From positions 620,001-684,000 of the forward strand of contig NZ_JALAAD010000001.1 in the NCBI RefSeq assembly GCF_022984075.1: DNA of 64,000 nucleotides, in the 5' to 3' direction. The notes beneath the pieces are model-generated. The model made no database searches and was not told where the DNA came from. It was given only the letters and a program-made list of their open reading frames with translations. The position numbers were made by a program, and so were the translations under genes. Shown piece after piece: positions 1,964 to 51,790 of the stretch. The DNA comes from Synechococcus sp. C9 (GTDB lineage Bacteria; Cyanobacteriota; Cyanobacteriia; Gloeomargaritales; Gloeomargaritaceae). How positions within the stretch are numbered: the stretch's first letter is position 1; each line of letters begins with the position of its first letter.

Positions 1964-3871
1964 TTACCAGTTTTCATCGTCCCATTCCCGGCGACGGGGC
2001 GGGTTGTCATCCAGGCGGCTCCAGGGGGGGGAGAACCAGGGCACTTCGTCTTCCTGCTGTTGTTGCCGGACGAGGGCGAGCAGTTCCGTCAGTTGTTCTT
2101 GCAGGCGACTGCTGAGGCGATCCACTTTGACAAAATCGTTGGCGGCTAAACTCCGGCGCAGGGCTTGGATCAGTTGTTCGATTTTCTGACGGCGTTCCCG
2201 CACAAATAGAAAACCGTAGTCCAGGGTCACCTGCCGCAGTTGCCGTTCCGCCCGTTGAATCAGGGCTTCCGCCTTGTGGTATTGCTCCACCCGTTGTTTT
2301 TGGGCTTGGTCCATTGGGGCGGCCCGTTCGGCTTCCGCCAGCATTTTTTGTACCTCCGCCTGGGTCAAACTGGCGGCATCCTGCACCGTCACCGTATGTT
2401 GCCGCCCAGTCTGCCGGTCTTGCGCCGTGACCTGCAAAATGCCGTTGGCATCAATGTCAAACGCTACCTGCACCTGGGGTAGCCCCTTGGGCGCGGGGGG
2501 AATGCCGGTCAACCGGAACCGCCCCAGGGATTTATTGCCGCTGGCGAGGGGACGTTCCCCCTGGAGGATGTGAATTTCCACCGCACTTTGGTTGTCCTCA
2601 GCGGTAGAAAAGGTATCCGAGCGGCGCACCGGCACCGGTGTATTGCGGGGAATCAGGGTTTTCATCATCCCCCCGGCGGTTTCCAAACCCAGGGATAGGG
2701 GGGTGACATCCAACAGCAGGACATCCCGCAGTTCCCCCGCCAGCACTGCCCCTTGAATGGCCGCCCCCACCGCCACCACCTCCTCCGGGTTCACCCCCTG
2801 GCAGGGTTCCTGATGCAGGAGTTCCCGTACCAACTGGCGCACCATCGGCATCCGGGTCGCCCCCCCCACCAACAGCACCGCATCAATATCCTGGGGGGCC
2901 AAACCGCTGTCGCTGAGGGCTTGATCCACCGGCAGGCGCAGGCGGTCCAGCAAATCCCCACAGAGGGATTCAAACGTACTGCGGCTCAATTCCGTTTCCA
3001 AATGCTGGGGGCCCTCCTCGGTGGCGGTAATAAACGGCAAATTGACCAGGGTGCTTTTCACACTGGAAAGTTCAATTTTGGCCTTTTCGGCGGCTTCCAA
3101 TAACCGTTGAAACGCCTGCCGTTCCCGGCGCAGGTCAATGCCCGTCTCCTTTTGAAATTGCTCCGCCAGCCAATTCACCAGCCGCTGGTCAAAATCCACC
3201 CCCCCCAACTGGGTATCCCCGCTGGTCGCCCGCACCTCAAAGACCCCTTGGCTAATTTCCAGGATGGACACATCAAACGTGCCGCCCCCCAAATCAAAGA
3301 CCAGGATGGTTTGTTCCTCTTTTTTATCCAACCCATAGGCCAAAGCCGCGGCGGTGGGTTCATTCAAAATCCGTTTCACCTCCAACCCCGCCAACCGCCC
3401 CGCATCCCGGGTGGCCTGCCGCTGGGCATCATTAAAATAGGCGGGTACCGTGATCACCACATCCGTCACCGGTCGCCCCAACACCTGCTCCGCATCATCC
3501 GCCAATTTCCGCAAAATCATTGCCGACAATTCCTCCGGGGCATATACCTGCTCCATGCGGGGACAAACCACCTCTACCCGGTTGCGCTCCCCCCGTCGAA
3601 TCGTGTAGGGCACCCGCCGTGCCACCGCTGGCAATTCATCGTAGGTCATCCCCATCAACCGTTTCACCCCATAAAACGTATTTTTGGGGTCCAGTACCGC
3701 CTGTCTGCGTGCCAACTGCCCCACCAGCCGCTCCCCTTCCCGGGAAAATCCCACCACACTCGGCGTGGTGCGACTCCCTTCACTGTTGGGGAGTACCACG
3801 GGTTTGCCCCCTTCCATCACCGCCACTACCGAATTCGTTGTTCCCAGGTCAATTCCCACCACGCTGGTCAT
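1964..3871 (-). CDS. dnaK: Hsp70 chaperone DnaK
   Basis: This ATP-dependent cytoplasmic chaperone has 635 residues, the normal size for DnaK. The nucleotide-binding domain starts with [13 protein letters not shown] and contains [11 protein letters not shown] and [11 protein letters not shown]. The substrate-binding domain includes [14 protein letters not shown]. The helical lid ends in an unusual Trp-, Pro- and Arg-rich acidic tail ([15 protein letters not shown] through WDDENW). That ending does not look like the EEVD-like tail of the housekeeping cyanobacterial paralogue, so this is probably one of the extra DnaK copies (inference). It is the first gene of a dnaK-dnaJ operon. No CIRCE inverted repeat was found in the 142-bp upstream gap. 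Confidence 0.96.
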
Positions 3872-4013
3872 GGGCTACCCTATCCACCTAACAAGAAGTT
3901 CCCTGTATCCTATCTTACTGTGAACCCAACAGCAGTCCGGATTCCCCTACTCCTATCCGACCTGAGCTAGTCTAATATGATAGCAATTCAATAATTATCC
4001 CTAAATTATCCCT

Positions 4014-4376
4014 ATGAGCGATTCATCCCCAAACTTTTGGCAAAAAGCCAAGGCGAAACTGCAGGACATCACCACCAGCCCCCCGGCGCAACAGGTGAAA
4101 AAATTAGCCCAAACTGCCGCCCAACAAATCGGGGAAACTGCCCAGGAACTCCAACAGCAGACGGAAGAATTGCTCCAAAGCGAACGGGTCAAGCATCTGC
4201 GTCAGAATGCCACCCAAACCGCCCAAAAAGTTTCCCAACAGACCAGCACGGTTTTGGGACAGGTGACAGAAACCATCAAAACCACCACCGCTGACTTGGT
4301 CGATCAGGCGAAAAAACAATTGGATGCTTCCTCTTCAAAACCTGATGCCAACGAAACAGATTTGCCCGGCTTCTGA
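4014..4376 (+). CDS. Small amphipathic-helix protein of unknown function
   Basis: I do not recognise a named family for this 120-residue protein. It is hydrophilic and rich in Gln, Thr, Ala and Lys. Long predicted amphipathic helices or coiled coils run through most of the length (for example ELQQQTEELLQSERVKHLRQ), with no signal peptide, Cys or membrane segment. The composition resembles LEA-like or apolipoprotein-like helical proteins that coat membranes or protect proteins. The gene is divergent from dnaK across a 142-bp gap, so a shared stress-responsive promoter region is possible (inference). The ATG at 4014 is the only sensible start. Confidence 0.7.
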   Translation: MSDSSPNFWQKAKAKLQDITTSPPAQQVKKLAQTAAQQIGETAQELQQQTEELLQSERVKHLRQNATQTAQKVSQQTSTVLGQVTETIKTTTADLVDQAKKQLDASSSKPDANETDLPGF

Positions 4377-4413
4377 ACCACTAATCATACAATCCTCAAC
4401 CAAAATGGTATCA

Positions 4414-4484
4414 AGGTCCTAGGCATACTGCCCCCGAGCTTGGGTTTACAAAATTTTTGTTTGTGAATCAAGTAGGATTGCTAT
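4414..4484 (+). repeat. Degenerate family-1 repeat end
   Basis: The stretch ends in GAATCAAGTAGGATTGCTATAG, the same terminus as the dispersed repeat at 51.7 kb. The preceding core (CATACTGCCCCCGAGCTTGG) is strongly eroded. It lies just upstream of the Uma2-family gene, and its terminal TATAG could contribute to that gene's promoter. Confidence 0.55.
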
Positions 4485-4526
4485 AGAATTGTCGTCTGAG
4501 CATCAATAATAATCAAATAAGTTTTT

Positions 4527-5099
4527 ATGCAATCTCTCACCAATACCAAGCAGTTAACCGTTGAGGAATTTCTCACCCTTCCCACTGGCGATATCACCTA
4601 TGAGTTAGTAGAGGGAAAAGCGGTACCCAAGGATAAACCGATGTCACCCCAGCGTTTTCATGCCTCTTTACAGAAATGCTTGCTGTGGATTTTGGATGGG
4701 TGGTGCCGAGGGAAGGGAGATGTTTATACAGAATTAGCGGTGCAACTCCAACGCCAGGGGGATGTGTGGGTGCCTGTACCGGATTTAACCTATGTTTCTT
4801 TTGAGCGTTGGCCGGAGCAATTAACCAGTGATGGCCTTTGTCCAGTCGCCCCTGAATTGGTGGTTGAAATTATTTCTCCGACCCAAGGTTTTGGGGAAAT
4901 GGCACAAAAAGCGGGCGATTATTTAGAGGCTGGGATTCTGCGGGTATGGATCGTTGATGCGGTCGCCAAAAGTATCACCGTGTTTTACCCCGACCGCCGC
5001 CCCCACACATTTACCAAATCCCAAAGGATGACAGATGATTTATTCCCAGACTTGGTGATCATTCCCGAAGATATATTTGCCCAGGCACGCATTCCCTAA
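4527..5099 (+). CDS. Uma2 family (DUF820) PD-(D/E)XK nuclease-like protein
   Basis: Proteins of this family are very abundant in cyanobacteria and have a restriction-endonuclease-like fold. Their cellular role is not established. The 190-residue protein has the family layout: VEEFLTLPTGDITYELVEGKAV at the N-terminus (conserved Glu), VPVPDLTYVS (catalytic-type Asp), then APELVVEIISP with the E-x-I/V pair. A downstream basic and aromatic segment (AGILRVWIVDAVAKSITVF) completes the core. The gene is monocistronic and flanked on both sides by copies of the dispersed repeat, which fits an accessory, mobile gene. Confidence 0.85.
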   Translation: MQSLTNTKQLTVEEFLTLPTGDITYELVEGKAVPKDKPMSPQRFHASLQKCLLWILDGWCRGKGDVYTELAVQLQRQGDVWVPVPDLTYVSFERWPEQLTSDGLCPVAPELVVEIISPTQGFGEMAQKAGDYLEAGILRVWIVDAVAKSITVFYPDRRPHTFTKSQRMTDDLFPDLVIIPEDIFAQARIP

Positions 5100-6884: not shown

Positions 6885-7811
6885 GTGCAGTTACAGCAGG
6901 TCATTATCACCTACAAGGCCAACGACCCGGAGAGTAAACGCTGGGCGACTCGCTGTGAGCAGGAATTGACCGCTCGGGGGGTGCGGGTGTTGGTGGGGCC
7001 GAGTGGACCGAAGGACAACCCCTACCCGGTGTTTTTGGCTTCGGCGCATCAGGGGATTGATTTGGCGATGGTGCTGGGGGGGGATGGGACGGCCTTGGGG
7101 GCGGCACGGCATCTGGCCGGGGAGGGGATTCCCCTGTTGGCGGTGAACATCGGCGGGCGGTTGGGGTTTCTCACGGAACCGGCGGAGGTACTCTACGACA
7201 CCCAGACCGTCTGGGAGCGGTTGGCGCAGGATCGCTATGCGGTGCAAAAACGGATGATGGTGCAGGCGCAACTGTTTCAGGGCAATCAACGACCAGGGGA
7301 ACCCACCAGCGAGGTGTTTTGGGCGTTGAATGAAATGGCGGTGAAACCGGCGAGTGTGGAACGGCTCCCCACCTGCGTTCTGGAAATTGAAATTGACGGG
7401 GAACTCATTGACCAGTACCAGGGGGATGGGTTGATCGTGGCCACCCCTACGGGTTCCACCTCCTATACCCTCTCGGCGGGCGGGGCAATTATGCACCCAG
7501 GGATGGAGGCCCTTTCCGTCGTGCCCATCTGTCCCTTGAGTTTATCCAGCCGCCCCTTGATTTTGCCCCCGGCGTTTGTGGTCAGCATTTGGCCCTTGCA
7601 GGACCGGGAGTTGAGTACCAAACTGTGGATGGATGGGGTACTGGCCACCAGCATTTGGCCGGGACAACGGGTGGACGTGCGGCGGGCCCAGAAGGATGCC
7701 CAATTTATCATCCTGCGGGAAAATTACTCCTACTACCGCACCCTCCGGGAAAAGTTGCAGTGGGCGGGGGCATTGGTGCCCTATCCCAATAACCACCGGG
7801 TCTGGTCCTAA
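6885..7811 (+). CDS. nadK: NAD kinase
   Basis: The enzyme phosphorylates NAD to NADP, supplying cofactor for photosynthetic electron transfer and biosynthesis. The protein contains the hallmark LGGDGTALGAARHL (GGDG motif), VNIGGRLGFLTE and the substrate segment ALNEMAVKPASVERL (NE motif). It also has GDGLIVATPTGSTSYTLSAGG, the conserved NADK region 2. The GTG at 6885 gives 308 residues, the usual size; an alternative TTG at 6828 would add 19 unconserved residues. The gene opens a same-strand run with the small lipoprotein and malic enzyme genes. The malic enzyme is NAD(P)-linked, so the grouping is metabolically sensible. Confidence 0.95.
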   Translation: MQLQQVIITYKANDPESKRWATRCEQELTARGVRVLVGPSGPKDNPYPVFLASAHQGIDLAMVLGGDGTALGAARHLAGEGIPLLAVNIGGRLGFLTEPAEVLYDTQTVWERLAQDRYAVQKRMMVQAQLFQGNQRPGEPTSEVFWALNEMAVKPASVERLPTCVLEIEIDGELIDQYQGDGLIVATPTGSTSYTLSAGGAIMHPGMEALSVVPICPLSLSSRPLILPPAFVVSIWPLQDRELSTKLWMDGVLATSIWPGQRVDVRRAQKDAQFIILRENYSYYRTLREKLQWAGALVPYPNNHRVWS

Positions 7812-7815
7812 ATGT

Positions 7816-8217
7816 ATGCGGCGATGGCTCTGGGTGGTGGTCGTTTTGGCAGGCTGTGGCGATGCGGTGGATTCCCCGGAACAGGCGGTGCGGGAATTTT
7901 TACGCTACGGCCCAGGCAGTCCCACCCCCAGTTATACCCAAATCCAATCCCGCCTATGTAACCGGGTCGTGGACGGGGTACCGCTCCCCCAACGGATACT
8001 GCGTTTGTACGACACCCTCGATGACCTGGAATTAACCGTGGATTACGCGGGCGTGGATTTGACCACCCAGATCAGCGGCAATCGGGCGACCGTGCGGGTA
8101 ACGGGTTCCGTAAAACGTACGGAAAAAGGGGTGGTGACGACCCAGCAATTGACCGGAGAAGACCAGGTTTTGACCCTGATACGCACCGGGGGACGGTGGC
8201 AAATTTGTCCTCCCTGA
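7816..8217 (+). CDS. Small predicted lipoprotein
   Basis: The 133-residue protein starts MRRWLWVVVVLAGCGD, a short positively charged and hydrophobic leader with an LAGC lipobox, so it is predicted to be lipid-anchored at the periplasmic face. The mature part (QAVREFLRYGPGSPTPSYTQ through QVLTLIRTGGRWQICPP) looks like a small alpha/beta domain of the NTF2-like or DUF4878 type, in which GGRWQI is a typical last strand. That family assignment is tentative. It begins 4 nt after the nadK stop and is probably co-transcribed. The function is unknown. Confidence 0.7.
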   Translation: MRRWLWVVVVLAGCGDAVDSPEQAVREFLRYGPGSPTPSYTQIQSRLCNRVVDGVPLPQRILRLYDTLDDLELTVDYAGVDLTTQISGNRATVRVTGSVKRTEKGVVTTQQLTGEDQVLTLIRTGGRWQICPP

Positions 8218-8285
8218 ACGACCCCTTGGGGCAAACTATGGTACGGTTGCTTATTACCAAATCATTGCCCAGAACGGAAACCCCT

Positions 8286-9677
8286 ATGACCAGCCTTACC
8301 CCCAGTCCCAGCTTCAGTCTGACCGTGCGCCTGGAAATTCCCAACCGGGCGGGGCAGTTGGCCACCATTTTGCAGGCGATTGGGGAGGTCGGCGGCAACC
8401 TCGGCCCGATTAACCTGGTGGACCAGACCCGGCACATGGCGGTGCGGGAAATTACCATTGAGGCCACCAGCCCGGAACACGAAGAACGGATCATTCAAAC
8501 CCTCAAGGGGTTGCCCCAGGTGCGGGTGCTGAGCGTGGACGACCGTACCTTCAAGCTCCACCAGGGGGGCAAAATTCATTTGCAAAGCAAAATTCCGCTG
8601 AAAAATCGGGCGGATTTGGCGATGGCCTACACCCCCGGCGTGGGACGGGTATGCAGTGAAATTGCCCAAAATCCCGACCAGGTGTACCGCTTGACGATCA
8701 AACAAAACTGTGTGGCGATTGTCACCGATGGCAGTGCGGTATTGGGGCTGGGGAATCTGGGGGCGGCCGCCGCTTTGCCGGTGATGGAAGGGAAAGCCAT
8801 GCTGTTTAAGGAATTTGCGGGCATTGATGCCTTTCCGATTTGCCTGGCCACCCAGGATACGGATGCGATTGTCAATACGGTGAAATACCTGGCACCCGTA
8901 TTTGGCGGGGTGAATTTAGAAGATATTAGTGCGCCCCGCTGTTTTGAAATCGAACAGCGACTGCAACAGGAATTGGATATTCCGGTCTTTCACGATGACC
9001 AACATGGCACGGCGGTGGTCACCCTGGCGGCTTTGCTGAATGCCCTGCGCTGGGTCGGCAAATCCCTGGAACGGGTGCGGGTGGTGATCAATGGCGCCGG
9101 AGCCGCCGGTTTAGCAGTGGCCAGCCTCTTGCAACGGGCGGGTGCCCAGGGGTTAATTCTGTGCGATTCGCAAGGCATTGTCAGTACCAGCCGTTTCGAC
9201 CTCCACCCCACCAAAGCCAGCTTTGCCGTTGAGCAAACCGGTACCTTGGCCGATGCCCTCGTGGATGCGGATGTGTTTCTGGGCTTGAGTGTCCCCGGTG
9301 CGGTCACCCCGGAAATGGTGATGCGGATGGCCCCCGACCCGGTGGTGTTTGCTATGGCCAACCCGGTGCCGGAAATCCAACCGGAATTGGTGGAAGACAA
9401 GGTAGCCGTCATGGCGACTGGACGCAGTGACTACCCCAATCAGATTAACAATGTGCTGGCCTTTCCCGGCATTTTCCGGGGGGCATTAGACAGCCGGGTA
9501 CGCCATCTCACCCCTGACTTGTATCTGGCCGCCGCCCGTGCCATCGCCAGTTTGGTCGCCCCCCAAGAATTACAACGGGAGTACATTATCCCTTCCGTAT
9601 TTGATTCACGGGTGGTGCAGGCCGTTGCCCAGTCCGTGAGCCAGTGCGCCCGGGAATGCGGCTTGACCCAGTCCTAG
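8286..9677 (+). CDS. ACT-domain malic enzyme
   Basis: Malic enzyme oxidatively decarboxylates L-malate to pyruvate with reduction of NAD(P). The N-terminal 80 residues form an ACT-type regulatory domain (LTVRLEIPNRAGQLATILQA). The catalytic part follows: AMAYTPGVGRVC with the conserved Tyr, LPVMEGKAMLFKEFAGIDAFP with the catalytic Lys, and FHDDQHGTAVVTLAAL with metal-binding acids. A Rossmann NAD-binding segment (VVINGAGAAGLAVASLL) and AMANPVPEI complete it. Starting at the ATG at 8286 gives 463 residues, matching cyanobacterial malic enzymes. In-frame GTG at 8196 and ATG at 8238 are possible but extend before the ACT domain and overlap the lipoprotein gene. Confidence 0.93.
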   Translation: MTSLTPSPSFSLTVRLEIPNRAGQLATILQAIGEVGGNLGPINLVDQTRHMAVREITIEATSPEHEERIIQTLKGLPQVRVLSVDDRTFKLHQGGKIHLQSKIPLKNRADLAMAYTPGVGRVCSEIAQNPDQVYRLTIKQNCVAIVTDGSAVLGLGNLGAAAALPVMEGKAMLFKEFAGIDAFPICLATQDTDAIVNTVKYLAPVFGGVNLEDISAPRCFEIEQRLQQELDIPVFHDDQHGTAVVTLAALLNALRWVGKSLERVRVVINGAGAAGLAVASLLQRAGAQGLILCDSQGIVSTSRFDLHPTKASFAVEQTGTLADALVDADVFLGLSVPGAVTPEMVMRMAPDPVVFAMANPVPEIQPELVEDKVAVMATGRSDYPNQINNVLAFPGIFRGALDSRVRHLTPDLYLAAARAIASLVAPQELQREYIIPSVFDSRVVQAVAQSVSQCARECGLTQS

Positions 9678-46373: not shown

Positions 46374-46500
46374 AGGGCACCTCTATTTATTATCACCACT
46401 GGAAGATTATTTCGCTAAAATGTCCATACTATCGAGAACCAAGACGGGGGCGGTGCCCCTGCGAGCCCTTGTTCTAAACCCAGTTAGGATTGCTATAGTT
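46374..46500. repeat. Hybrid repeat element at the left edge of the TGT-HerA-NurA island
   Basis: It begins with the family-2 terminus (AGGGCACCTCTATTTATT) but ends with the family-1 terminus (TTAGGATTGCTATAGTT), so it looks recombinant. Bases 46436-46500 are a near-identical direct copy of 51636-51700, in the same orientation and exactly 5200 bp away. The right part overlaps the last codons and stop of the TGT-like gene. Confidence 0.75.
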
Positions 46501-47526
46501 ACTCTGTTCTAGTTCAAGAATTTTATTAATTAGTGGTCTATAGAGTGTATTGTCCAGATGATCTAGAAACCAATTTTCATAATCGCCAGCAACTAGATGT
46601 TCTTGAATTAAACGCACTTCTTCTAAAAGAATCCAAAGGTTATGAGTGGCTCGATTACGAAATCCATGTACTAAATTTGCTGTTAACCCATCAATACCAT
46701 ATCGTTTACACGCTGGACATTTGCACTCAGCGAGCATCTCCCATTCCTTAGCGTCAGGTTTTCGACCCCGCCAACTTCCTAGATTAGCAACCATACGATC
46801 ACCCTTTCCCGGTAATTGTACAATGCCACGTGCAGCCCGATTGCGCCATCCACTAGAATCAACCGAATTGATGCGTAATAATGCCGCAATGTGTAGAGTA
46901 ATGGTTCCGCCAATCCCAAAAATATGGAGTTTTTTATCTCGAAATTCTTGGCGTATATGTATCAGCTTCTCCAAAATTTTCTGGGGGTGCATTGCTTTCG
47001 GAGCTTTAAGCAAGTTAGGCACAATTCCTCCTAATGCAATCACTCCTTTTTCCAGAAGAGACTTATGGGACTTAAAGCGGCTAAGATAATCTTCTAAAAG
47101 CGGACTGATATGCACAACAGGTATATAGTTCCCCTGTGAATAACAAATGTTCATATCCATTGTGCGATCAAGACACTTTTGTTGCTCTTCTAGGGTCATT
47201 TTAGGTGTGGGAATAAAATCTTGAGGAATGGGAAACCAATCAGGCTGAGCATTCTTGACAAACTCTGTATATTCCTCCACAGGTGTCTCACCCCCATGAG
47301 TAATGAAGTAGAAAGCTCCATTATCCAGATAGATTTTGATGTGACTGGGAACACCTAAGTAGTTATGGAGTCCTTGATCCATTGCCTTCCGTCTAAGAGC
47401 AGGCTTTTTATGAAAATCGGCATAGGAAATCATAATTGCTGTTAGTTCAGGCAAATAGTATTCAGAATCAGGATTCCAAACATCTGGCTTGAGCGAACTC
47501 AGAGTAGTTCCGGCAACTATTTGCAC
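46474..47526 (-). CDS. Divergent tRNA-guanine-transglycosylase-like enzyme (DpdA/archaeal-TGT type)
   Basis: TGT-fold enzymes exchange guanine for a 7-deazaguanine base in tRNA or, in the DpdA group, in DNA. The 350-residue protein keeps the key elements: YLDNGAF (residues 66-72, Asp68), IALGGIVP (163-170), FGIGG, and VDSSGWRNRAARG (Asp223, the nucleophile position). A zinc site is Cys268-x-Cys270-x2-Cys273 with His295 in RATHNLW. It is less like bacterial queuosine TGT (GGFQVF, GGLSVGE are absent) than like the DpdA or archaeal groups. The start is GTG at 47526 with GAGG 8 nt upstream. It is the last gene of the operon with NurA, HerA and DUF6884-like genes. Residues 342-350 are encoded by the repeat. 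Confidence 0.85.
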   Translation of the reverse strand: MQIVAGTTLSSLKPDVWNPDSEYYLPELTAIMISYADFHKKPALRRKAMDQGLHNYLGVPSHIKIYLDNGAFYFITHGGETPVEEYTEFVKNAQPDWFPIPQDFIPTPKMTLEEQQKCLDRTMDMNICYSQGNYIPVVHISPLLEDYLSRFKSHKSLLEKGVIALGGIVPNLLKAPKAMHPQKILEKLIHIRQEFRDKKLHIFGIGGTITLHIAALLRINSVDSSGWRNRAARGIVQLPGKGDRMVANLGSWRGRKPDAKEWEMLAECKCPACKRYGIDGLTANLVHGFRNRATHNLWILLEEVRLIQEHLVAGDYENWFLDHLDNTLYRPLINKILELEQSNYSNPNWV

Positions 47527-47536
47527 AAGCTTTGCC

Positions 47537-49156
47537 TCAAGTCAGTTGCGAGAGATAAGATATATAACGAGCCATAATCCGGTCTTCTGTCTGCTCAGTT
47601 ATGAATTCTCCAAGATTCTTAGAGAAGTTATGTGCTTGAAGTGTTACGCTGGGGATTAAAAACATGACTGGTTCATCTTTTTTGTCAATCATAAATGAAT
47701 GGTCTTCATCAATATCAGGAGTAGAGTACTGAAGAGAGTAGAAAATCTTTTTCATTATTGATTCAGGTGAACCGAGGGAGTCATGGTAAAAGAAATCATA
47801 TCGAGGCAAAAGCAGTTCTGGACTTTTGCAGTGTCCCATGAAAAACATATAAAGATGACCAAGGTCACATAATTGACGAAAAGGTTGTATATTAAAACTA
47901 GATAAATTTTCATAGTGTGAGAAATAGGAATTCAAATCATTTAGATCGGCTTTTGTATTTAGATTTGCTCTTGTGGTAAATGAGCGACGAATCATACAAG
48001 TACAAATTGTTTCCCGCAAATTATCGCTTATAACCGACGGAGAAGAAAGAAGTAGTGTCATTGCTTGCCCGTCATTTAGTGTGTAATTCCCAGCTACCCA
48101 TCTCTTATCTATGTATTTGCTTATGTACCAATCAACTAGCGCACTATAAACTTTTAGTTGAACACTTTTAGCAACACCGCAATAAATGATTCCAGCATCT
48201 CTGGCAGAAGTGAGGCAGTTTATAAGTTCACGAATTGCTTCACGAGTAAATTCTCCTCTTCTGTTAGCAAGGATAAAGTTATCTAAATAAGCATCTTGAG
48301 GAAAGAGACTACCATCTCTAAGAATGATATTTGGTGGTTTGTAATCGGGTTTCAAAAGGTATCGGTGATCAAACTTATATTGACCTACATCCATTGCAGA
48401 AGCAAGGCATCTTTGATAGTGTTCGGGTTCTAGTTCTTCCTGATAGGAAGGGTCTATTAACATCCATTGTAGTAATTCATCATCAGGTCGAGGATCAAAC
48501 AAAGCTTCATACTCAGGTTTGCCCTGTTCTACTTTCAAAAGAGTACCGGCAGAATTATTAAGTACAAATGGAACTCGGCGCCTAAAGAAAGGAGCAGGGA
48601 TAGGTACAGCACTTCGATGTTGGCTGACGTCAGACGATCCAATTAAGGGAACTACACCATTCCATATAGAATCATCTGCAGAAATTAAATTGAGAAAATA
48701 CTTTCCTACAATATGTTTTTCAAGATGAGCACTAATCGATTCTTTATTGAAAGGGTCAACCCTCCATCCGGTTCCTCCCTGACGGGGATTATGTACTCGT
48801 ATTTGCTCATAAGTCATACCAAAACCACGGATAGCAACCTGTTCGAGAAGACGTGATAATCGAGGTGCTTTAGTTGAGTCTTGCTCAATAGTACCTTTTA
48901 GGTCTGTTAGAAACTCTAAATATAGCTCTCGTGGATCTTTTTCCAGTAGTTGATTCCGAGCTAATTCGATTGTCGTATTCCAAGCCCTTTCAGAATCAAC
49001 AATCCGACTCATAATATCAATTGTTCTAGTCACTGGATCGTAACTAGCCAAATCTTCACGACTAAAAACTGTAGCAGATTTAATAATTGAGCCAAAATCC
49101 AACGATAACTGCTCCGTGTTTTGAGATTCTTGCTGAGGGTTACGTCTTCGAGGCAT
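47537..49156 (-). CDS. NurA-like nuclease
   Basis: NurA is a nuclease that works with the HerA translocase on DNA ends. The 539-residue protein fits the long bacterial NurA-domain group. A first acidic motif is PLIGSSDVSQHRSAVPIP (around residues 170-187, Asp176). The second is NIILRDGSLFPQ (Asp281 in the DGS). The segment IIYCGVAKSVQLKVYSALVD and a C-terminal region ending ARYISYLSQLT complete the domain. The family call is by motif and neighbour, not by overall similarity. The ATG at 49156 overlaps the herA stop by one base (TAATG), favouring it over an ATG at 49201. The gene is AT-rich, unlike the flanking core genome. Confidence 0.7.
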   Translation of the reverse strand: MPRRRNPQQESQNTEQLSLDFGSIIKSATVFSREDLASYDPVTRTIDIMSRIVDSERAWNTTIELARNQLLEKDPRELYLEFLTDLKGTIEQDSTKAPRLSRLLEQVAIRGFGMTYEQIRVHNPRQGGTGWRVDPFNKESISAHLEKHIVGKYFLNLISADDSIWNGVVPLIGSSDVSQHRSAVPIPAPFFRRRVPFVLNNSAGTLLKVEQGKPEYEALFDPRPDDELLQWMLIDPSYQEELEPEHYQRCLASAMDVGQYKFDHRYLLKPDYKPPNIILRDGSLFPQDAYLDNFILANRRGEFTREAIRELINCLTSARDAGIIYCGVAKSVQLKVYSALVDWYISKYIDKRWVAGNYTLNDGQAMTLLLSSPSVISDNLRETICTCMIRRSFTTRANLNTKADLNDLNSYFSHYENLSSFNIQPFRQLCDLGHLYMFFMGHCKSPELLLPRYDFFYHDSLGSPESIMKKIFYSLQYSTPDIDEDHSFMIDKKDEPVMFLIPSVTLQAHNFSKNLGEFITEQTEDRIMARYISYLSQLT

Positions 49157-50781
49157 TATTCCCCACCTTGAGTCTTTAGCTCTTCGATTATTTTTATCCA
49201 TTTTTCTTGCATTTCCTCAAAAATATTGGGTGTCTTTCCTCCCTCTGAATCCTCCGTATTTCTCTTTCTGATTCTAACTGGTATGGTATGCTTTACGCTT
49301 TCATAAGTTCCAGAAAGTAAACAAGTTCCTTGAGGCATTTTAGGTAAAGCACGAAGCATTTCATCTGTTGCATCTGCCTTGACACCCTTAATAGCATCAA
49401 GTTGATCTGGCTCTAGTGCAAAGACTAATCTGGTGTTACATTGCCGAATTGTACTTTTATCAATATCCACTGGGCTTTGAGTTAGAAGAACCATACAAAT
49501 TCCATGATGCCTACCAATCCTCACACCTTCCCTGATGATTTGCTTACACGGACTACTTGTACCTTCTGGGACAAATAAATGTGCTTCATCAATCACCGCT
49601 ACATAGGGAGGGATATGATTACGAAGACGTAGATTTTGTAGTTCTCGGAGAACTGCGGTTGCTACAGACTGTAATTGTGAAGATGTAAGTTTTTTGCAAT
49701 TTATAGTGACACATGGATATAAGAATTTTCGCCAATCTGCTACTCCATGTCCAAAAATTTTGAGCTTTGCAAGGGTGCCTAATCTACGCTGTACTGCATC
49801 AATTACTCTTGGAATATCCCCTTCCTTAGCAGTTAGTTCTGCGGATACCTCTGGAATTTTAGCTAAAACATCGTCTAGTGTGAATTTAGCCATATCCTCA
49901 TTGGTCAGTTTAGTTTGAAGTTCACCAAAAGCCTTTGCTACAATGTCACACTGCAAGGGACTTTTTTTCATTGCCTCTGGTAGCAGATCTAAAAGTTCCG
50001 ATTCGGTTAGTGAAGAAATCCGAATACTAAAATCTTTTCCAGGTTCAACAACTACACCACCTAGTTTTTTAACCAACTCGGAATATTCATCCTGAGTATC
50101 AATGAACACAACAGGGAGTTTGTGTTTTTGAACGAGTTCTTCAGTAATAACTCCCATTGCATAACTTTTACCACTACCTGTAGTTCCACAGATAAAAAGA
50201 TGACGCTGAATTGATTGACGCTTTAGGATAATCTTTGAGATGGTTCCACTAGTGGTTTCACCAATAAATAACCCTTGATTTTCGTCTTGTTCAAGTCCTA
50301 ATGTCTGGACTATCTCATTAACATCAGCAATAAACACATCAGCACCTGAATTAGGAAGATTCTGAGGTGCCCTTGTTTCTGTTTTTATTTTCTTTTCACC
50401 ATTTTCAACAAACTCCCGGTTAAAAATCTCTTCAATTAAATCTGCCTCAGCTAAGCGAAAGATTTTTGTGCTGTCTTCTTCTCTCGGATACACCTTTGGT
50501 ATTTTCAAAGCATCACGTACACCAACGCTTTCGACACTCTCATTTGGATTACATTCATAAGCACTACGAATCCGTCCAATAAGAATAGTTTGCTCATTAC
50601 GCATAACTGGAATCCGAACAAGTGTTCCAGGCTTTAAATCTTGACCCGCCTTTAACTTAATCCTAACAGTTTCAAACGTTGGGGTCTCCTGATCAGAAAT
50701 TACCGTGCCAACAACCAGTTGATTGTTGCTATTGGCGACTGTCTTAACTGAGGGATTCTCATCACTAGAAAAACTTTTCAT
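49156..50781 (-). CDS. HerA-type hexameric DNA translocase ATPase
   Basis: HerA ATPases (FtsK/HerA, DUF87 class) form hexamers that translocate DNA and drive NurA. The 541-residue protein has an N-terminal HAS-barrel-like domain (VVGTVISDQETPTFETVRIK, then GTLVRIPVMRNEQTILIGRI). The ATPase core has Walker A at residues 199-206 (CGTTGSGKSYAMGVITEE) and Walker B at 394-401 (VAVIDEAHLFVPEGTSSPC). The sensor segment is MVLLTQSPVDIDKSTIRQCN. A GGAG 9 nt upstream supports the ATG at 50781. It follows the DUF6884-like gene by 22 bp and overlaps NurA by one base. Confidence 0.9.
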   Translation of the reverse strand: MKSFSSDENPSVKTVANSNNQLVVGTVISDQETPTFETVRIKLKAGQDLKPGTLVRIPVMRNEQTILIGRIRSAYECNPNESVESVGVRDALKIPKVYPREEDSTKIFRLAEADLIEEIFNREFVENGEKKIKTETRAPQNLPNSGADVFIADVNEIVQTLGLEQDENQGLFIGETTSGTISKIILKRQSIQRHLFICGTTGSGKSYAMGVITEELVQKHKLPVVFIDTQDEYSELVKKLGGVVVEPGKDFSIRISSLTESELLDLLPEAMKKSPLQCDIVAKAFGELQTKLTNEDMAKFTLDDVLAKIPEVSAELTAKEGDIPRVIDAVQRRLGTLAKLKIFGHGVADWRKFLYPCVTINCKKLTSSQLQSVATAVLRELQNLRLRNHIPPYVAVIDEAHLFVPEGTSSPCKQIIREGVRIGRHHGICMVLLTQSPVDIDKSTIRQCNTRLVFALEPDQLDAIKGVKADATDEMLRALPKMPQGTCLLSGTYESVKHTIPVRIRKRNTEDSEGGKTPNIFEEMQEKWIKIIEELKTQGGE

Positions 50782-50803
50782 GTTCTATTTCTCCTGTAAA
50801 CAA

Positions 50804-51556
50804 CTAAATCTGTGCATCTAAAAGAACTGGAATTCCTAGTTCCCTTAATAATTTCTTTGCATTACCCGTGTGGAAGCTACTCACTGGCAATCCAGTAATT
50901 TGACTGACCAACCATTTTGGGGCTACTCGCAGATCATCAACCTGCACATACCAAGATTGGTAACGGGTGGCTCTCTCATCCTGGGTGGTGAGCGCCTGTC
51001 TGGCAATATCAAGGACTTGCTCTACTGTTAAAGTCACCTCAACGCCTCTAATGCGACCTGTTCCTTTCGTAGAAGCCAAATCCTGCTTGGTCTCCAAACT
51101 GGATGCTCCATAAAGCCAATTGTACAGAACCGACAGCTTTCTGCCCATTCCGCCAGTGGCAACTTGGACTGATAAACTATCTGGGATTATAGTTTCATGG
51201 TCACAGATTACTTCAAGATACTCTTTTCCTAAGCAAATCAAAAGATTTGTATAAGATTTTCTGTTAAGAATTGTTTCTAGCTCCGTGATAACCTGATGGC
51301 GTAATTCATGGACTTGTCCCTTCGTCAGCCTGCGGTCATAGTAGGGTAAGTGGTAGTCAGCAGAGATTAATCCATACTTCGCCGAGAGAATTCTGACATC
51401 AACAGATGGGGTTAAATTCTGGTTTAGGTATCGGCGCAATACACGGTAGGCAGGTCCATCGTAGCGTTCGATTGCCGGTAATAGTTGTTCATCAAACTTC
51501 TTACGCTGAGAACAATTTAGTAACAATAGTCTCGATAAAGTGCTTTCTGCCAACAT
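50804..51556 (-). CDS. DUF6884-like protein with C-terminal extension
   Basis: The N-terminal half matches the DUF6884 pattern, which I regard as related to the DUF5591/YaaA fold. It shows LLLLNCSQRKKF (residues 10-21, the Cys-Ser-x-x-Lys motif) and DGPAYRVLRRYL. VRILSAKYGLISADYHLPYYD (54-74) and LLICLGKEYLEVI follow. The C-terminal third (VEVTLTVEQVLDIARQAL through TGLPVSSFHTGNAKKLLREL) is an extra helical part I do not recognise. In archaeosine synthase, a TGT-like domain is joined to a DUF5591 domain with the same Cys-Ser-x-Lys motif. Finding both kinds of domain in one operon suggests they cooperate (inference). The start is ATG 51556; a TTG at 51562 is possible. It is the first gene of the four-gene operon. 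Confidence 0.65.
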   Translation of the reverse strand: MLAESTLSRLLLLNCSQRKKFDEQLLPAIERYDGPAYRVLRRYLNQNLTPSVDVRILSAKYGLISADYHLPYYDRRLTKGQVHELRHQVITELETILNRKSYTNLLICLGKEYLEVICDHETIIPDSLSVQVATGGMGRKLSVLYNWLYGASSLETKQDLASTKGTGRIRGVEVTLTVEQVLDIARQALTTQDERATRYQSWYVQVDDLRVAPKWLVSQITGLPVSSFHTGNAKKLLRELGIPVLLDAQI

Positions 51557-51571
51557 ATCCAATTAACCAAG

Positions 51572-51701
51572 AAACTATAGCAATCCTACTTGATTTACAT
51601 TAGCTTGCGTGCCGTAGGCATACAAAAAGTTTCCAGAACCAAGGACGGGGGCGGTGCCCCTGCGACTCCTGTTCTAAACTCATTTAGGATTGCTATAGTT
51701 T
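51572..51701. repeat. Complete 130-bp MITE-like element with 17-bp perfect inverted ends
   Basis: The ends are AAACTATAGCAATCCTA (51572-51588) and TAGGATTGCTATAGTTT (51685-51701), perfect inverted repeats of 17 bp. The left interior (TTTACATTAGCTTGCGTGCC) matches 6611-6671. The right interior (CAAGGACGGGGGCGGTGCCC) is the dispersed core on the opposite strand. There is no ORF, so any movement would need a transposase elsewhere. It is immediately upstream of the four-gene island. Confidence 0.8.
51636..51700 (+). repeat. Right 65-bp direct repeat of the island
   Basis: This segment is the direct copy of 46436-46500. Both run from GAACCAAG through CGGGGGCGGTGCCCCTGCGA to TTAGGATTGCTATAGTT, with a few substitutions and compensating single-base shifts. 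The two copies are offset by exactly 5200 bp. Confidence 0.8.
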
Positions 51702-51790
51702 CAAATAAGTTTGCGACAGACGAAGTAAAAGGGATAGAGATTCATGGGTCTTTGTGAGTTAGACATATCGAATTTGATGATTTCATTTCC

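Follow-up and report, generated by a model that had tools for sequence, protein, structure and literature searches.

What is a base-exchange enzyme of the tRNA-guanine transglycosylase (TGT) superfamily doing in an operon with a DNA translocase and a nuclease? The question is raised by four genes of Synechococcus sp. C9, which lie on the minus strand of a 64,000-nucleotide stretch of contig NZ_JALAAD010000001.1 (positions 620,001 to 684,000; hereafter the window) and encode, from window position 51562 down to 46474, a DUF6884 protein, a HerA-type translocase, a NurA-like nuclease and a TGT-like enzyme. Our answer, put forward as only just probable, is that they form a compact, Dpd-like modification-restriction system based on 7-deazaguanine and equipped with exchangeable nuclease engines. 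What the sequences show is a TGT that forms a clade of its own and has intact catalytic residues, coupled to a DUF6884 protein of the YaaA/DpdC type and to a dedicated, exchangeable engine; we infer both the chemistry and which DNA, marked or unmarked, comes under attack. A DNA modification, restriction or anti-phage system had already been proposed in a preliminary description of the window, and such a system is still the best reading, albeit one deduced rather than observed. Because only one locus was seen at that stage, the exchangeable engine was missed.

Layout of the operon

The four genes are collinear, open and uninterrupted, with 22 bp between the DUF6884 and HerA genes, a 1-bp TAATG overlap between HerA and the NurA-like gene and 10 bp between the latter and the TGT gene. 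This bears out the single-strand operon of the preliminary description, whose genes are intact rather than decayed, as well as its remark on AT-rich composition (GC content 40-42%, against mostly 54-59% in the surrounding DNA). The first gene (50804-51562) encodes the 252-amino-acid (aa) DUF6884 protein, starts at a TTG with an alternative ATG at 51556, and comprises a YaaA/DpdC-like N-terminal domain (residues 7-155) and a conserved C-terminal part (about residues 165-250) without a Pfam match. It is followed by the 541-aa HerA-type DNA translocase (49156-50781), which has a DUF87 domain and Walker motifs, by the 539-aa NurA-like nuclease of what we call type A (47537-49156), recognised from motifs and conservation, and by the 350-aa TGT-superfamily base-exchange enzyme (46474-47526), which has no PUA domain and was assigned through Pfam, PDB matches and a tree. 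For the NurA-like gene, we placed the start at the ATG at 49156 that overlaps the HerA stop codon, as in its homologues; the open reading frame itself reaches 49201. Among the gene labels first given, TGT, HerA and DUF6884 are upheld by Pfam, whereas NurA lacks any profile support and is kept as NurA-like.

A transglycosylase outside the named families

The TGT-like protein exceeds the Pfam cut-off for the superfamily (PF01702: 31.6 bits against 26.3, 1.2e-7) and, among PDB sequences, matches archaeosine TGT (1iq8, 6e-9) and DpdA (7ui4, 3e-4). Asp68, Asp223 and the full CxCx2C...H zinc site, all noticed early on, are present; together with D103, they (D68, D223 and the ligands C268/C270/C273/H295) are invariant in 13 TGT homologues and align with their counterparts in the host Tgt, archaeosine TGT and DpdA. 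Going by established TGT biochemistry, we take D68 to be the general base, D103 to recognise guanine and D223 to be the nucleophile. The ratio of nonsynonymous to synonymous divergence (dN/dS) of the TGT is 0.03-0.28. A predicted model (mean predicted local distance difference test score, pLDDT, of 69) finds its best fold match in 1iq8 (Z 24.6, root-mean-square deviation 3.3 over 317 residues) and also matches DpdA 7ui4.

None of the curated families reaches its cut-off with this protein: it scores 11.4 against 306.75 bits for bacterial Tgt (TIGR00430), 38.7 against 350 bits for archaeal TgtA (TIGR00432), its strongest NCBIfam score, and 28.8 against 200 bits for DpdA (NF041059), while the PADLOC DpdA profile matches part of it (1.6e-8). 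In the TGT tree, the operon family forms one clade (95/97) within a group (99/97) that also holds bacterial DpdA and the TGTs of a Rhizobium phage and of STSV1; archaeosine TGT and small haloarchaeal TGTs fall apart from this group, and no grouping with a standard tRNA enzyme is seen, a point that the preliminary description had wanted checked. The operon TGT lies outside the DpdA clade, although a topology that unites it with DpdA only cannot be rejected (p 0.10); a topology that unites it with the DUF6884-linked haloarchaeal TGT is rejected (p 0.002). The TGTs of RHEph04 and STSV1 stand nearest to it, with weak support, and the tree does not single out one best sister group. The enzyme had been thought closer to DpdA or archaeal TGT, and it does lie with DpdA and the phage and viral TGTs, but by curated cut-offs it is in neither family. 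As far as profiles and tree can tell, then, the operon TGT belongs to no named TGT family and sides with DpdA and phage/viral TGTs, not with the tRNA enzymes. A TGT 98% identical to it occurs in Gloeomargaritales VI4D9. The host, a Gloeomargarita-like cyanobacterium, encodes a queuosine Tgt of its own at another place in the genome and no third TGT.

The DUF6884 partner

Membership of the first protein in DUF6884 is clear from Pfam (PF21818: 47 bits against a cut-off of 30, 3.7e-12) and from the motifs CxxxK (C17, K21) and LSAxxG (residues 59-64), which are seen in the alignment and form a possible active site according to the family's authors (PMC11701544). Weaker matches were obtained to Pfam PF03883 (3e-4) and, in PADLOC, to PDC-M57A (8e-9) and, only at 3e-4, DpdC; the C-terminal part, scanned alone, matched no family. 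A structure comparison covering residues 6-159 of the predicted model yielded AF0587 (2q07, Z 9.8) and YaaA (5caj, Z 9.6), with the next best match at 6.3. AF0587 is related to the archaeosine synthase ArcS, an enzyme that likewise acts on the preQ0 nitrile. The Pfam domain named for dpdC is DUF6884 (PMC11888242), and DpdC converts 2'-deoxy-7-cyano-7-deazaguanosine (dPreQ0) in DNA to 2'-deoxy-7-amido-7-deazaguanosine (dADG) (PMC12839542). The early statement that this TGT keeps other partners than those of Dpd clusters therefore holds for HerA-NurA but not for DUF6884. YfjM, a DUF6884 relative, is among DNA-lesion binders and has been modelled flipping a base (PMC11701544).

Two arrangements found in other genomes indicate that the functions of TGT and DUF6884 belong together. 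One is a natural TGT-DUF6884 fusion of 448 aa with DUF6884 at the C-terminus (locus L076, G459:C67:8000-22142, positions 7235-8581; DUF6884 3e-44, TGT 3e-7); the other is a haloarchaeal plasmid (Haladaptatus, L042) on which DUF6884 lies directly 5' of a TGT gene, with DpdJ-like and phospholipase D (PLD) genes adjoining. The contig with the fusion is plasmid-like, carrying parA/parB, and the same genome also has an operon of type B (see below). On a Natrinema plasmid (L043, 6652-8456), a DUF6884 gene is directly preceded by a gene of the 3'-phosphoadenosine-5'-phosphosulfate (PAPS) reductase family.

Dedicated and exchangeable engines

We searched 386 cyanobacterial genomes and, in an overlapping sample, 391 genomes of one order, and outside the cyanobacteria we covered plasmid and phage collections. 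The operon TGT was found in 4 of the 386 and 12 of the 391 genomes, a sporadic distribution that includes a near-identical locus, several chromosomal cyanobacterial loci and a mobilizable plasmid of Aulosira; a congener that has the common flanking DNA lacks the operon. The families recur together in these genomes well beyond chance; the preliminary description had asked for this check.

In every complete locus, DUF6884 comes first and TGT last, and it is the middle that varies. Type A, with HerA followed by the NurA-like gene (NurA-A), comprises the window and loci L002, L009, L010, L034, L036 and L038, together with L040, in which HerA is broken. Type B, with a different NurA (NurA-B) followed by a different HerA (HerA-B), comprises L033, L037 and L039, and in L003, at a contig end, HerA-B is followed by TGT. 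In type C, on the Aulosira plasmid (L012), DUF6884 is followed in turn by a sigma-factor-like gene, by genes for a 240-aa protein, an M78 peptidase of the ImmA/IrrE type and a 352-aa protein, by a gene whose product weakly matches HerA, and by genes for a phosphoesterase of the Mre11 type and an ATPase of the Rad50/SbcC type, before TGT closes the locus. The sigma-factor-like and peptidase genes inside this Mre11-Rad50 version (2575-4690) perhaps constitute a regulatory switch. Two further loci are decayed and have no engine: in L035, TGT is broken by stops and DUF6884 shortened, and in L041 both ends are truncated. Scans of viral contigs returned no intact operon and a single TGT remnant from IMG/VR (L032, IMGVR_UViG_3300016466_000585) with a HerA-B scrap fused at its start. 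The contig of this remnant has a terminase and other phage-like genes; next to the remnant are PAPS-reductase-like and RAMP-like genes that, by eye, resemble type IV-B CRISPR (csf1/csf2/csf3-like, cysH).

The HerA of the window is well supported by Pfam DUF87 (88 bits against a cut-off of 23.2, 1.3e-24), by PADLOC (7.5e-32) and by its Walker A (GTTGSGKS at 199) and Walker B (VAVIDEAH at 394) motifs. Its nuclease partner gave no match in Pfam (including NurA PF09376), NCBIfam, PADLOC, PHROGs or PDB sequences, and a profile-profile comparison with the type-B NurA returned a probability of 0.2%; the type-B counterparts themselves match Pfam NurA (42.1 against a cut-off of 21 bits, 1e-10). It does carry the motifs GSSDVSQHRS, ILRDGSLFP, GVAKS and P..TLQAHNFSK, and the series GSSDxS...ILRDGSLFP...GVxKs...P..TxQAHxxsK, in what may be the motif order of NurA with its invariant Asp, Lys and His, is kept in eight homologues. 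We therefore call gene 3 NurA-like, a designation suggested by these motifs, the HerA partner, the position in the operon and a distant relative in genome G403, which has GSDGS. In G403, HerA lies 143 bp 3' of a C5-cytosine methyltransferase gene and is followed by the NurA-A relative (E 4e-14), so that the same kind of engine appears to stand beside a different DNA modifier. The three genes, the last of 748 aa, share one strand (L088, G403:C14, 3887-9084) and are possibly another restriction-modification arrangement with HerA-NurA.

Judging from its distribution, the type-A engine is dedicated to the TGT-bearing operon. A profile search found NurA-A in 3 of 373 genomes, all three of which have the operon TGT (Fisher p 5e-7, an indicative value, as species are not independent), and at full score in 6 of the 391 genomes, a set identical to that of the type-A TGT carriers among them; G403 holds the only other relative found. 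NurA-B had no match in the phylum sample, which includes no known type-B carrier and is hence uninformative.

Comparison of closely related loci points to an engine that has been exchanged in place. Three genomes of one genus (G211, L010; G472, L034; G414, L033) carry the operon at the same chromosomal site with common flanking DNA, and across them DUF6884 is 83-95% and TGT 97-98% identical, with an engine of type A or type B in between. Between L033 and L010, DUF6884 shares 95% protein identity and the match resumes 15 bp before TGT (98%); in between (L033, 10656-14013), L033 has, instead of HerA-NurA, another pair whose genes run in the reverse order, NurA before HerA, and the breaks fall at gene borders. 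Mapped onto the TGT tree, types A, B and C imply a minimum of five engine changes. The engine has shifted among type-A loci as well. The synonymous divergence (dS) between the window and L002 is 0.011 for NurA, compared to 0.11 for TGT and 0.14 for DUF6884, and between L010 and L034 the three values are 0.012, 0.36 and 0.34; compared in sliding windows, the divergence changes in sharp steps. In no fewer than two lineages, therefore, recombination within the operon has brought in the nuclease at a later date than the end genes; a third pair (L009/L036) exhibits no such contrast between NurA and TGT. The engine has thus been exchanged between otherwise near-identical loci.

Proposed function and its alternatives

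In the proposed system, the TGT would release guanine from certain DNA sites by breaking its glycosidic bond and put preQ0 from the host's queuosine pathway in its place. DUF6884 would process the nitrile (to the amide, like DpdC) and/or read the base by flipping it, its C-terminal domain possibly helping to choose sites. HerA-NurA would load on DNA without the correct mark, typically that of an invading phage or plasmid, which would be pulled through the HerA ring and then degraded. Since DpdA over its cut-off was found in none of 15 carriers, any mark must be written by the operon TGT, and we favour self-marking over the targeting of modified phage DNA, as writing a mark requires both an intact exchange site and a partner of the DpdC type. 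The methyltransferase-HerA-NurA row of G403 was counted in favour as well, as it suggests that such an engine pairs with another DNA modifier.

Several observations weigh against this proposal. DpdB, the DGQHR/ParB-like ATPase that partners DpdA in Dpd systems, has no match among the four proteins; some clusters reportedly can do without it (PMC12839542), as can a phage DpdA (PMC6884629). A check for preQ0 genes, proposed at the outset, found QueC in 14 of 15 carriers but also in 21 of 21 non-carriers and is uninformative, so preQ0 supply is a permissive condition rather than evidence, and we rejected it as a supporting co-occurrence; the carrier without QueC is G116, whose TGT is a fragment at a contig end. 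The loci without an engine, L041 and L035, are truncated at their ends as well, so the set of loci includes no stand-alone modifier. Around the window, no defence-island context was found, and long branches leave the deep placement of the TGT only moderately secure. Finally, DUF6884 is the fastest-diverging part of the operon in most pairs (49% compared to 87% for TGT between L037 and L038), a rate that appears more like that of a specificity or arms-race component than of a plain hydratase.

A bolder variant, which we regard as doubtful but worth keeping in view, is that base exchange itself is the immune trigger: the constant TGT-DUF6884 front end would detect or create abnormal 7-deazaguanine or exchanged bases, and the DNA bearing them would be handed to whichever resection machine is available, be it one of the two unrelated kinds of HerA-NurA or HerA-Mre11-Rad50. 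If so, the defence would be modular in architecture, with the sensor or modifier rather than the nuclease as its defining part.

Unlikely, if still to be taken seriously, is an attack akin to type IV restriction. Here, the host would be unmarked, TGT and DUF6884 would recognise or exchange the 7-deazaguanines of phages (preQ0, 7-amido-7-deazaguanine or archaeosine), and this event would load HerA-NurA or HerA-Mre11-Rad50 on the phage genome. An operon without DpdB or preQ0 genes in carriers without DpdA would suit it, as would the rapid divergence of DUF6884, the occurrence of 7-deazaguanine DNA in many phages (PMC6884629) and the lesion binding and modelled base flipping of YfjM (PMC11701544). 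However, a TGT catalytic site and a DpdC-type partner suit a writer, a reader needs no intact base-exchange nucleophile, and the related engine of G403 is found beside a methyltransferase, which is a writer.

We give little credence to a role in guanine-lesion repair, with TGT removing or replacing damaged guanine, DUF6884 binding lesions and HerA-NurA resecting ends. HerA-NurA is a known end-resection machine (PMC9960219), Mre11-Rad50 occupies the same place in Aulosira, and YfjM, a DUF6884 protein, is among DNA-lesion binders (PMC11701544), but an operon that occurs in 1-3% of genomes, is absent in a close congener, resides on a plasmid in one case, exists in decayed copies and has had its engine replaced repeatedly does not behave like housekeeping repair. 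Just as improbable is a TGT that modifies tRNA or another RNA and is merely a passenger or stress-linked partner of the nuclease genes. Its fold is closest to archaeosine TGT (1iq8, Z 24.6) and TgtA gives its top NCBIfam score (38.7 bits), yet this score is far under the TgtA cut-off (350 bits), the PUA domain is missing, the protein groups with DNA-acting TGTs in a dedicated association with DNA translocase-nucleases, and the host has its own queuosine Tgt. Least credible is a phage or plasmid counter-defence module that marks mobile DNA and whose engine serves replication or recombination, for which one copy on a mobilizable plasmid and one TGT remnant whose contig bears phage genes might speak, but most copies are on contigs without plasmid or phage genes and the viral contigs gave that remnant with its HerA-B scrap and no intact operon.

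Should the Dpd-like modification-restriction system be confirmed, 7-deazaguanine DNA defence would extend beyond the large Dpd islands to a two-protein core of TGT and DUF6884, wired to quite different resection engines that nature has swapped in place. DUF6884, a widespread domain of unknown function, would gain a testable partner and substrate, HerA-NurA and Mre11-Rad50 would be tied to modified-base immunity, and an unreported DNA base modification would be predicted in some Gloeomargarita and other cyanobacteria. The operon would also offer a small, genetically tidy system for studying the order of marking, recognition and degradation.

Comparison with known systems

The closest comparison is with Dpd (dpdA-K), with which the operon has in common a TGT with intact catalytic and zinc residues, a DUF6884-type partner, adjoining helicase or nuclease genes and a sporadic, mobile distribution. 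Unlike Dpd, however, its TGT falls far short of the cut-off for DpdA and lies outside that clade, DpdB and dpdD-K are absent, the effector is HerA with NurA or with Mre11 and Rad50, and the order DUF6884-engine-TGT is fixed. BREX-Related Capture (BRC) likewise places a HerA/FtsK translocase and a TGT in a presumed defence operon (PMC12839542). Its core consists of PglZ, DUF6079, a STAND NTPase and DUF4007, with TGT in a subset only and no NurA in the described set, and homologues of DpdB or DpdC are absent according to its authors (PMC12839542). BRC core genes have no match among the four proteins of the window, and the core operons of the relatives consist of DUF6884, engine and TGT only. As the defining genes of both Dpd and BRC, the published systems that came closest, were looked for and are missing, we rejected membership in either and file the operon as a variant among the 7-deazaguanine DNA modification systems, not as a member of Dpd.

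The HerA-NurA end-resection pair of archaea and some bacteria also has HerA next to a NurA-type nuclease gene, but the engine of the operon is tied to TGT and DUF6884, is variable and exchangeable, and in type A has a NurA that has diverged beyond the reach of the Pfam profile. Haloarchaeal plasmid loci (DUF6884, TGT and HATPase with DpdJ-like helicase and PLD; Haladaptatus L042, where DUF6884 is directly 5' of TGT, and the related Natrinema L057) resemble the operon in the helicase and nuclease genes around them and differ in the TGT clade (p 0.002) and in having another engine, without HerA-NurA. Phage DpdA and DpdA2 are, similarly, stand-alone DNA-acting TGTs without DpdB; in contrast to the operon, they serve phage self-protection, with preQ0 genes and without a nuclease engine (PMC6884629). 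A literature search, which left out subscription papers and in which absence is therefore no proof, found no paper joining transglycosylase, NurA, HerA and defense.

Several dpdA islands contain a second, small TGT of 307-344 aa, namely those on a Picosynechococcus plasmid (L058), on Paenibacillus pART37 (L060) and on haloarchaeal plasmids (L013/L014/L063). These two-TGT islands carry genes for a helicase, a P-loop NTPase or a BrxC/D-like ATPase.

Border repeats

The repeat borders of the preliminary description are real, with a match spanning 46432-46500 and 51632-51700, but they are copies of a dispersed element and thus weak evidence about the operon itself. The left copy (46432-46500) overlaps the 3' end of the TGT gene and encodes its last few residues. 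The right copy (51571-51702) has 26-nt inverted ends of the IS630 type and resembles a miniature inverted-repeat transposable element. The repeats were rejected as proof of a transposable unit, given that this small IS630-like element is dispersed and also found elsewhere in relatives, with several copies in L067/L068. At locus L002, a DDE_3 transposase fragment lies 3' of the operon.

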